From contig NZ_CP107904.1 in the NCBI RefSeq assembly GCF_036013975.1, forward strand, positions 4,093,001 through 4,157,000: a stretch of DNA of 64,000 nt. The letters are read 5' to 3'. The position numbers and the translations under genes were made by a program. Below are positions 12,921 through 37,271 of this stretch, piece by piece; positions within the stretch are counted from its first letter, which is position 1; each line of letters begins with the position of its first letter. This stretch comes from Kitasatospora sp. NBC_00458 (lineage in GTDB: Bacteria; Actinomycetota; Actinomycetes; Streptomycetales; Streptomycetaceae). A model generated the notes under the pieces. It was not told the origin of the DNA, ran no database searches, and saw only the letters and a program-made list of their open reading frames with translations.

Positions 12921-13262
12921 GGGTCCCCAGTGTGCCAGTGCGACTATCCGGCGACCATTTCTTTCCCAAGACAGGGGCTCGGTCAACCCGGAGTTGACAG
13001 CCGAACGACCCTTCCGCACCCGGATGACATTTCAACTCCGGTGCACTGCAAGGCTTTTGAAGGAACCCCTACAAATGGGGGCCGATCCGGCGGGAACCGC
13101 GGGAAAGCCCTTCCGATGACACCATCGGGCGAATTGCCACCCATTCGGTGGAGTTCGTCCGCAGTGCTGGTGAATCCTGGTCGTGCGACGTCAGGCAACG
13201 GCGCTTCGGGGCGGCCACCCCGGAACGCGCCACCATTCGCACTCCACCATCAGGAGACCACC
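12921..13262. other. Divergent intergenic region, Hsp90-like / small secreted protein
   Basis: These 342 bases contain the GTCAAC-N5-GTTGAC inverted repeat (12982-12998) and a CCCC/GGGG-armed element around TACAAA (about 13066-13082). No further gene with codon bias was found. Confidence 0.5.
12982..12998. promoter_or_regulatory. GTCAAC-N5-GTTGAC inverted repeat before Hsp90-like gene
   Basis: The arms GTCAAC and GTTGAC are perfect and separated by CCGGA. The minus-strand reading contains TTGACC, a possible -35 for the Hsp90-like gene, though the matching -10 (AGAAAT, 18-nt spacing) is weak. The same 6-5-6 box occurs twice before the HTH-ClpN gene at 36.5 kb. Confidence 0.55.
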
Positions 13263-35718: not shown

Positions 35719-36426
35719 ATGGTGCACTTCTCCGACTTCGACACCCGCAACTACCCGACCGTGGACGTCAGGACCGGCTACGCCCAGTGGGTGGCCACGT
35801 ACGAGCGGACCGTCGAGGACGCGATGGACCTCGCCGTGCTCGACCGGCTCACCGTGCCCGCCTGGCCGGAGGTCGGCCGCGCGGCCGACCTGGGCTGCGG
35901 CACCGGCCGGACGGGCGCCTGGCTGCGCGACCGGGCCGCCGCGGGCCTGGTGCTCGACGGGGTGGACCTCACCCCCGAGATGCTCGCCGCGGCCCGGGCG
36001 CGGGGCGCCCACGACAGCCTCACCGAGGGCGACGTCGAGGCCACCGGGCTGACCTCCGGCGCGTACGACCTGGTGGTGTCCTCGCTGATCGACGAGCACC
36101 TCGCCGACCTCGGCCCGTACTACCGCGAGGCCTGGCGACTGGCCCGCCCGGGCGGGCGCTGCGTCCTGGTCGGCCTGCACCCGTACTTCATCATGGCGGC
36201 CGGCATGCCGACCCACTTCACCGGTGAGGACGGCGCCGACATCGCCATCACCACCCACGTCCACCTGGTCTCGGACCACCTGACCGCCGGACTGGCGGCC
36301 GGCTGGACGCTGGTCGAGATGGCGGAGGCGGTGGTGGACGACGCGTGGATCGCGCTCAAGCCGAAGTGGGAGAAGTACCGCAGCCACCCGGTCTCGGCCG
36401 CGTACGTCTGGGAGAAGCGGGGCTGA
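35719..36426 (+). CDS. SAM-dependent methyltransferase
   Basis: The 235-aa protein has motif I AADLGCGTGRTGAWL (about 55-70), the acidic VDLTPEMLAAARARG, EGDVEATGL, and LARPGGRCVLVGLHPYF, the class I methyltransferase fold. The N-terminus FDTRNYPTVDVRTGYAQWVATYE resembles small-molecule methyltransferases. ATG 35719 has GATACT 7 nt upstream and no ribosome-binding site; a GTG at 35698 would add seven residues. Substrate unknown. Confidence 0.85.
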   Translation: MVHFSDFDTRNYPTVDVRTGYAQWVATYERTVEDAMDLAVLDRLTVPAWPEVGRAADLGCGTGRTGAWLRDRAAAGLVLDGVDLTPEMLAAARARGAHDSLTEGDVEATGLTSGAYDLVVSSLIDEHLADLGPYYREAWRLARPGGRCVLVGLHPYFIMAAGMPTHFTGEDGADIAITTHVHLVSDHLTAGLAAGWTLVEMAEAVVDDAWIALKPKWEKYRSHPVSAAYVWEKRG

Positions 36427-36460
36427 GACCCCGGCGCGGAGCGGGCCGGGCAACTCGAAT

Positions 36461-36515
36461 CCCAGGATCGTCAACCATCGGTTGACGATCCTGGGGTCGA
36501 CAACCTACGGTTGAC
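36461..36515 (+). promoter_or_regulatory. Two GTCAAC-N5-GTTGAC-type operators over a leaderless promoter
   Basis: Box 1 is the centre of a perfect 16-bp inverted repeat (36461-36476 with 36480-36495); its core GTCAAC-CATCG-GTTGAC is 36470-36486. Box 2, GACAAC-CTACG-GTTGAC, is 36499-36515, 29 bp away. TTGACG (36482-36487), an 18-nt spacer and TACGGT (36506-36511) form the promoter, one element in each box; TACGGT ends 7 nt before ATG 36519. Confidence 0.8.
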
Positions 36516-36518
36516 GCT

Positions 36519-37271
36519 ATGGAGAATCCGATCGTTCCCAAGACCACCCCGCTGCGTCTCGACGACCTGATCGAGGCCATCAAGAAGATCCACACCGACG
36601 CGCTCGACCAGCTGGCCGACGCGGTCATCGCCGGCGACCACCTCGGTGAGCTGGCCGACCACCTCATCGGCCACTTCGTCGACCAGGCGCGCCGCTCCGG
36701 CGCCTCCTGGACCGACATCGGCCGCAGCATGGGCGTCAGCAAGCAGGCCGCGCAGAAGCGGTTCGTCCCCAAGGACCCGGCCACCCCGAACGACCTCGAC
36801 CCGAGCCAGGGCTTCGGCCGTTTCACCGACCGCGCCCGCAACGTCGTGATGTCCTCCCAGGAGGAGGCCCGCCGGGCCGGCAACGCCGAGATCGGCGCCG
36901 AACACCTGCTGCTCGGCCTGCTCGCCGAGCCCGACGGCCTGGCCGTCAGGGCTCTGGCCGCCCAGGGCGTGTCCTCCGAGGCGGTCCGGACCTCCGCGAC
37001 GGCGGCGCTCCCGGCCGCCGCCGCGGAGGTCCCGGCGCTCATCCCGTACGACACCCAGGGCAAGAAGGCGCTGGAACTGACCTTCCGGGAGGCGCTCAAG
37101 CTCGGCCACAACTACGTCGGCACCGAGCACATCCTGCTCGCGCTGCTGGAGCTGGAGAACGGCGCCGGCGTGCTCAGCGACCTCGGGGTGGAGAAGGCGG
37201 AGACCGAGGCCTTCGTCGCCGACATCCTCGCGGCGTTCATCGCGACGAGCACCGACGACGCCCAGGAGTGA
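36519..37271 (+). CDS. HTH and Clp N-terminal (ClpN) domain protein, probable autoregulator
   Basis: The 250-aa protein has an N-terminal helical region, a helix-turn-helix at about 61-82 (SGASWTDIGRSMGVSKQAAQKRF read as two helices), and a double ClpN repeat (about 100-245: EIGAEHLLLGLLAEPDGLAV and YVGTEHILLALLELENGAGV) as found at the front of ClpA/ClpC. No AAA+ ATPase follows. The ClpN domain may bind adaptors, arginine-phosphorylated or unfolded proteins and pass this to the DNA-binding part. Two operator boxes cover its own promoter, so autoregulation is likely; the start is probably leaderless. A terminator follows. Confidence 0.88.
   Translation: MENPIVPKTTPLRLDDLIEAIKKIHTDALDQLADAVIAGDHLGELADHLIGHFVDQARRSGASWTDIGRSMGVSKQAAQKRFVPKDPATPNDLDPSQGFGRFTDRARNVVMSSQEEARRAGNAEIGAEHLLLGLLAEPDGLAVRALAAQGVSSEAVRTSATAALPAAAAEVPALIPYDTQGKKALELTFREALKLGHNYVGTEHILLALLELENGAGVLSDLGVEKAETEAFVADILAAFIATSTDDAQE

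Follow-up and report, generated by a model that had tools for sequence, protein, structure and literature searches.

The window analysed here, a 64,000-nt stretch of Kitasatospora DNA, carries on its forward strand (36519–37271) a gene for a 250-aa protein that is, by sequence homology, an orthologue of mycobacterial ClpC2 (Rv2667). The ORFs flanking it were read by eye as a methyltransferase and a Nudix-type protein. Two operator boxes lie directly upstream of the start codon. Box 1 (GTCAACCATCGGTTGAC, 36470–36486) is a perfect 6-5-6 palindrome, and box 2 (GACAACCTACGGTTGAC, 36499–36515) is a 6-5-6 palindrome with one mismatch. The boxes are thus unequal in quality, a point on which the earlier note on this DNA was silent. 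Measured start-to-start, they are 29 bp apart. The features of the locus are:

36461–36495, no strand: perfect inverted repeat with 16-bp arms (36461–36476 and 36480–36495) and loop ATC, centred on box 1 (sequence; RNA fold)
36470–36486, forward strand: putative operator box 1, a perfect GTCAAC-N5-GTTGAC, with TTGAC of the -35 element in the right half (sequence; conserved before orthologues)
36482–36487, forward strand: predicted -35 element TTGACG (sequence and position relative to the -10 element and ATG; missed by a consensus scan)
36499–36515, forward strand: putative operator box 2, GACAAC-N5-GTTGAC, one mismatch, including the -10 element TACGGT (sequence; TA at the box-2 centre in orthologues)
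36506–36511, forward strand: predicted -10 element TACGGT (sequence; TANNGT in 140/149 loci)
36519–37271, forward strand: clpC2 orthologue of the mycobacterial Rv2667 type, 250 aa, with a start codon that fits a leaderless transcript (homology, Pfam, structure match)
36708–36764, forward strand: codons 64–82, two predicted HTH helices (64–71 and 75–82), with Lys80 on the second (AlphaFold2 models; conservation; residue 80 against base 6)
36801–37265, forward strand: codons 95–249, ClpC-type N domain, ligand-binding in the mycobacterial orthologue (Pfam Clp_N; 8ad9 match)

The hexamers TTGACG and TACGGT are separated by 18 bp, and this spacing and the position of the ATG are consistent with a predicted leaderless transcript. 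A sigma-70 consensus scan detected no promoter in the 36461–36519 region, because TACGGT is far from TATAAT. The reading of the two hexamers as a promoter rests on the conservation of TANNGT as the -10 element and on what has been published for mycobacteria. The box pair departs from the pattern at one of 20 fixed bases and is the sole pair with four or fewer mismatches in the 64-kb window (spacing 28 or 29 bp), while no pair with fewer than four mismatches arose in any of 100 dinucleotide shuffles. Two boxes 29 bp apart over a TTGACG/TACGGT promoter, and a perfect inverted repeat with 16-bp arms centred on box 1, had both been described in the earlier note; both were confirmed from the sequence, with box 2 one base off.

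Relationship of the protein to ClpC2 and other known systems

Pfam predicted a Clp_N domain in the protein (E 1.3e-26) and no ATPase family. The NCBIfam full-length Clp models matched it in their N-terminal part alone, far below cut-off. No Pfam HTH family scored above cut-off. In AlphaFold2 models (68 sequences, pLDDT 89.5), helices are predicted at residues 44–59, 64–71 and 75–82, followed by a low-confidence linker (86–93) and a Clp-N fold. The protein had been described beforehand as an HTH joined to a ClpC-type N domain without ATPase; this description holds, with Pfam supplying the Clp_N domain and the absence of an ATPase, and AlphaFold2 predicting the HTH.

Residues 6–73 match the crystallised N-domain chain of Rv2667 (8ada; E 2.5e-30, or 1.7e-35 by profile), and residues 97–242 match its C-domain (8ad9; E 1e-37). 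The AlphaFold2 model superposes on the latter with a Z of 23.8 and an rmsd of 1.6 over 148 residues. A structure search with the full-length model returned Clp-N type structures alone and was uninformative on the N-domain. With the N-domain model, Foldseek listed mostly HTH proteins after 8ada, all with E values of at least 0.5, and VIA-align gave Z values of at most 5.1. The weak fold match to Fis (6m10; Z 5.1, rmsd 3.8 over 76 residues) shares with it a small domain that ends in an HTH, but the identity is 7%, and such a low Z between helical domains may reflect no more than a common arrangement. Full-length relatives are found in Mycobacterium, Mycolicibacterium, Nocardia, Rhodococcus, Micromonospora, Streptomyces and Kitasatospora, those of Kitasatospora being the closest among the named loci.

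The mycobacterial ClpC2 operator has been described as CGTCAAC-n5-GTTGACG, located 1–2 nt before the ORF, with a second copy upstream in many species that overlaps the -35 and -10 elements; the legend of the promoter alignment names species of Mycobacterium, Modestobacter, Saccharopolyspora, Rhodococcus, Gordonia and Nocardia (Taylor et al., 2023; PMC10030653). The window system resembles that of mycobacterial ClpC2 (Rv2667 and its M. smegmatis orthologue; 8ADA, 8AD9) in domain order, length and the homology of both the N- and C-domains. It also shares the operator sequence, the two copies over the -35 and -10 elements, and a start codon right after box 2. The mycobacterial D46–R57 pair corresponds to Asp47 and Arg58, which lie in the N-terminal, predicted dimerisation domain and are found in 100% and 96%, respectively, of 149 loci. 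The window protein differs from Rv2667 in having Tyr177 for Phe172 and Lys194 for Arg189. The locus also differs in the GACAAC half-site of box 2 and in the longer palindrome that contains box 1.

Two other identities were considered and rejected. The Streptomyces protein that is also called ClpC2 is a Clp-ATPase working with ClpP2 (PMC9765437). The window protein shares its name and Clp family membership, but the 250-aa product has no AAA+ modules (no Pfam ATPase family), and the shared name is misleading. No work on an Rv2667-type gene in Streptomyces was found among titles and abstract openings of an open-licence library, in which work on the Streptomyces Clp-ATPases was present. The second candidate is the RelI antitoxin (Rv2664; 9SDC), an 85-aa protein encoded with the RelS toxin, for whose complex the authors report no evidence of DNA binding (PMC13284704). 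It resembles residues 14–90 of the window protein (E 1e-4, or 3.8e-9 by profile), HTH-like helices included. A 250-aa protein with Clp_N and the flanking ORFs described above do not fit such an antitoxin.

Elsewhere in the genome that contains the window (L064; G000:C1:6039900-6041900), a short HTH-like ORF precedes a Clp_N-like ORF that stands on its own. This arrangement, which has no scored twin boxes, is a possible split version of the HTH-ClpN architecture. Similar, stop-interrupted matches are found in several relatives.

Conservation of the twin operator and its surroundings

Conservation of the boxes before orthologues had been set beforehand as a refutation test; it was run, and the boxes are conserved. 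Twin boxes are found in 149 of 160 HTH-bearing loci, with a spacing of 28 bp in 97 and 29 bp in 52, and in these 149 loci the start codon lies 2–3 nt downstream of box 2. These counts leave out L096, which duplicates the window, as well as L064 and L207, so that the 160 exclude L207, a 161st HTH locus without boxes. The first HTH pattern also missed L192, L199, L200, L208 and L210, of which L192 was recovered later. The box centre is TA in 141/149 loci for box 2 and in 1/149 for box 1, and a central TA fits the need of the -10 element. In a second set, of named genomes, for which 80 matches were listed, all 67 HTH-pattern loci carry the pair (spacing 28–30 bp, at most three mismatches), including two at 30 bp; the other 13 of the 80 listed have no HTH by pattern. 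The exact pair pattern occurs in 37 of 61 relatives, at one place in each and in 37/37 cases at the clpC2 orthologue (control 0), these places having been assigned to the gene by comparing coordinates by eye with the orthologue list. In the sister genus, 375 of 392 genomes have some N-domain match, and 326 of 392 have one at E ≤1e-25 (hand count). The proposal of the earlier note, that the gene is autorepressed by way of twin operators within a leaderless promoter, is supported by this deep conservation, and such autorepression has been shown experimentally in the mycobacterial orthologue (PMC10030653).

A subfamily comprising L060, L061, L199 and L200 has HTH helices of the type LG(I/M)SRQAAQQRY and boxes that by eye look one base longer (18 bp); the dimer geometry may therefore differ in this subfamily.

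Single sites were also found outside the clpC2 locus. The 8.01-Mb genome contains three perfect copies of GTCAAC-N5-GTTGAC, box 1 included. The extended form GTCAACC-N3-GGTTGAC has four sites at one mismatch or fewer and 22 at two or fewer, compared with 20 for the reversed control, which is no excess. One perfect site (window positions 12982–12998; L031) lies ~60 bp upstream of an HSP90-family gene on the minus strand. Among 29 HSP90 loci (30 less L084, which was not readable and was excluded), the 260 bp upstream contain a site at one mismatch or fewer in 13 and at two mismatches in five more, mostly GTCAAT-N5-GTTGAC; in background windows of these loci, no site comes within one mismatch, and a few have two. 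The third perfect site (G000:C1:7291903-7291919; L033) is just upstream of a CopG-like/PIN toxin-antitoxin pair, read by eye.

Such sites could potentially be explained by another regulator that uses GTCAAC-N5-GTTGAC and has the clpC2 gene as one of several targets, given the two further perfect single sites and the partial conservation of the one upstream of HSP90. The box pair is nevertheless confined to the clpC2 gene in the 61 relatives, and the HSP90-upstream site does not track clpC2, being present in a genome (G024) in which the HTH-ClpN orthologue was not found. Another regulator is accordingly regarded as very improbable. Because of that same genome, the HSP90 site was not assigned to the window protein, and a regulon of this protein extending beyond clpC2 to the HSP90-upstream and 7,291,903 sites was rejected.

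The inverted repeat around box 1 adds nine contiguous pairs to the 17-bp box, and the RNA fold of 36420–36519 has a z of -6.3. Box 1 is extended by at least four pairs in 18/149 loci, compared with ~3.6 expected from re-paired flanks, and box 2 in 6/149. A minority of orthologues (L025, L021, L023, L097, L169 and L239) likewise have long box-1 extensions, of differing sequence. The repeat might mainly be a terminator or insulator of the gene ending at 36426, covering box 1 incidentally. This would agree with the codirectional upstream ORF, whose stop lies 34 bp before the repeat, with the strong predicted hairpin and with the excess of box-1 extensions. The repeat at 36461–36495 is, however, without a T-run, and a codirectional upstream gene (strand judged by GC3) is no commoner with an extension (11 of 19 scorable loci) than without one (76 of 120). 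Wide conservation, moreover, belongs to the 17-bp core and not to the hairpin. Termination as the main role of the repeat is thus not supported, and we consider this reading quite unlikely.

The domain that reads the operator

Taylor et al. placed the DNA-binding site of mycobacterial ClpC2 in the Clp-N domain on the basis of a C-domain double mutant, R185A/R189A, that binds DNA less efficiently and is expressed at a twofold higher level (PMC10030653). According to this proposal, the autorepressor reads its operator through two arginines of the C-terminal Clp-N domain and the N-domain only dimerises; a ligand would displace the DNA either by overlapping with it or by shifting the C-domains. 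The EMSA and expression data of the mutant favour it, and the window protein retains the first arginine (R190), with Lys194 at the second.

Several observations on the orthologues argue against it. In a 92-row tree, Arg81 of the HTH is kept in 92/92 (as is Gln76, but that residue belonged to the selection pattern), and the Arg185 equivalent changed at least five times and the Arg189 equivalent, for which either Arg or Lys was scored as kept, at least twice. The boxes are perfect despite lost arginines in three loci with Asp at both positions (L053, L056, L058), in L188 (Ala/Arg; perfect twin boxes), and in L195 and L197 (Asp/Ala and Glu/Ala; perfect twin boxes), which have no recognisable Clp_N. 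The first five half-site bases are also kept in L198, whose twin boxes have one base-6 change, and in L057 (Gly/Glu), where two of four half-sites are changed at base 6. In ClpC1, DNA binding by the corresponding region shows little sequence specificity (PMC10030653). Furthermore, the deposited 8ada chain stops at GV, in the turn that leads into the second HTH helix, so that the crystallised N-domain fragment is without this helix and the structure is unable to show an HTH. Reading of the operator by the Clp-N domain is therefore considered unlikely. From the sequence comparisons and models, recognition of the operator is probably the task of the HTH, and ligand sensing that of the Clp-N domain. 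The R185A/R189A data stand, and the mutations could conceivably act indirectly.

L195, L197 and L198 encode proteins of 186–199 aa with an HTH. Pfam found no Clp_N above cut-off in these three; MarR, sigma-70 region 4 and other HTH families were matched at residues ~51–84, with E values of 0.003–0.05 that are below cut-offs. They are possibly ClpC2 offshoots that sense something else.

Within the HTH, residue 80 varies together with base 6 of the half-site. This base is C in 903/912 half-sites of Lys80 loci, whereas the 76 half-sites of Gln80 loci have C in 36, G in 23 and T in 17. The count covers 247 of 267 loci examined. Of the 20 dropped, six have no HTH by pattern (L064, L208, L210, L280, L281, L282), 12 have no scored twin (L059, L060, L061, L063, L065, L140, L199, L200, L207, L209, L211, L212) and two have a spacing of 30, which was disallowed in this count (L243, L255); among them, the Gln80 loci L060, L061, L199 and L200 have boxes that by eye seem one base longer. 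Column 80 has the highest F among the 250 residue columns, and column 106 explains more of the variance (0.81 vs 0.64) with more residue classes, in a ranking that ignores shared descent.

The fewest changes that account for residue 80 and base 6 are six, with three independent pairs on supported branches, which is not significant (median p 0.25, in a test that cannot reach 0.05); one pair ran opposite in 5 of 200 random pairings. A first, narrower tree had two residue-80 changes, and a wider HTH pattern and added loci gave the six; for the trees, Lys80 rows were thinned (92 and 139 rows). Three Gln80 loci, L174, L192 and L228, each sit alone within Lys80 clades. Three of four half-sites are changed in L228 (Streptomyces sp. 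GC420), compared with 1 of 120 in the 30 best-matching Lys80 loci of the sister-genus search, and L192 and L174 have two and one of four changed, respectively. As exceptions, the Gln80 loci L195, L197 and L206 have no deviating half-site, and eight Lys80 loci have one or two. It is likely, on balance, that residue 80 of the HTH sets the outer core base, with Lys demanding C and Gln allowing C, G or T, and that the published placement in Clp-N is wrong or secondary. The Clp-N domain would then be an exchangeable sensor, and twin operators at 28/29 bp would mark a one-gene circuit widespread in Actinomycetes and be usable to find ClpC2-like sensors whose Clp-N has diverged beyond recognition.

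Proposed circuit and ligands

Sequence comparison and analogy with mycobacteria together make it very probable that the window gene encodes a ClpC2 autorepressor on twin operators, read by the HTH and relieved by a ligand through the Clp-N domain. A ClpC2 homodimer, joined via its N-terminal domain, would sit on each of the two palindromes, with box 1 covering the -35 element and box 2 the -10 element and start point of the leaderless promoter. With these boxes occupied, RNA polymerase would be excluded and the protein would repress its own gene. The N-terminal HTH (codons 64–82), and not the C-terminal domain, would read the operator, with Lys80 specifying C:G at base 6. A ligand docking in the C-terminal ClpC-type N domain would take the dimer off the DNA. 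This ligand is cyclomarin A in mycobacteria, and here would probably be a ClpC1-directed peptide antibiotic, or an unfolded or tagged protein. The derepressed protein may then accumulate and soak up the ligand, so protecting ClpC1.

The core of this mechanism is already known, since Taylor et al. (2023) described the doubled operator, the way it overlaps the promoter, a leaderless start and an autorepression that cyclomarin A relieves. In mycobacteria, the protein has been shown to bind DNA, to repress its own gene until cyclomarin A is present, and to give protection (PMC10030653). For the window, sequence support consists of orthology, the conserved twin operator and its occurrence just once in each searched relative that has it. 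The window locus is a further case of the described system; what is new is this Kitasatospora-like member and the comparative evidence on the DNA-reading domain. Which domain reads the DNA decides how ligands could lift repression, by direct overlap with the DNA or by a change in the dimer.

ClpC1 is a drug target, and streptomycetes include producers of ClpC1-directed peptides. Since streptomycetes carry the same circuit, it may serve self-protection or competition. In mycobacteria, ClpC2 is a sponge that blunts cyclomarin, and the clpC2 operator offers a ready reporter for ClpC1-directed compounds.

The earlier note had suggested that the protein senses Clp substrates or adaptors. This stands as a possibility that the 2023 authors also raised for ClpC2 ligands, but the inducer shown for mycobacterial clpC2 is the antibiotic cyclomarin A, and heat gives ~twofold induction (PMC10030653). 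Ecumicin and ilamycin are reported to bind mycobacterial ClpC2 without inducing it in M. tuberculosis, a cyclomarin analogue alone of three binding peptides being an inducer (PMC12913811). Cyclomarin contacts Gln94, Phe96, Phe172 and Glu181 of Rv2667, which correspond to Q97, F99, Y177 and E186 of the window protein, with three of the four identical. At the Phe172 column, Phe is found in 90 and Tyr in 58 of the 160 loci. A ClpC1 F80Y mutant has been crystallised with cyclomarin, according to the title of entry 3wde. ClpC1 of the same genome has Phe at the place matching Tyr177 of the window protein; the ClpC2 pocket is thus not an exact copy of that of ClpC1, and its inducer could differ.
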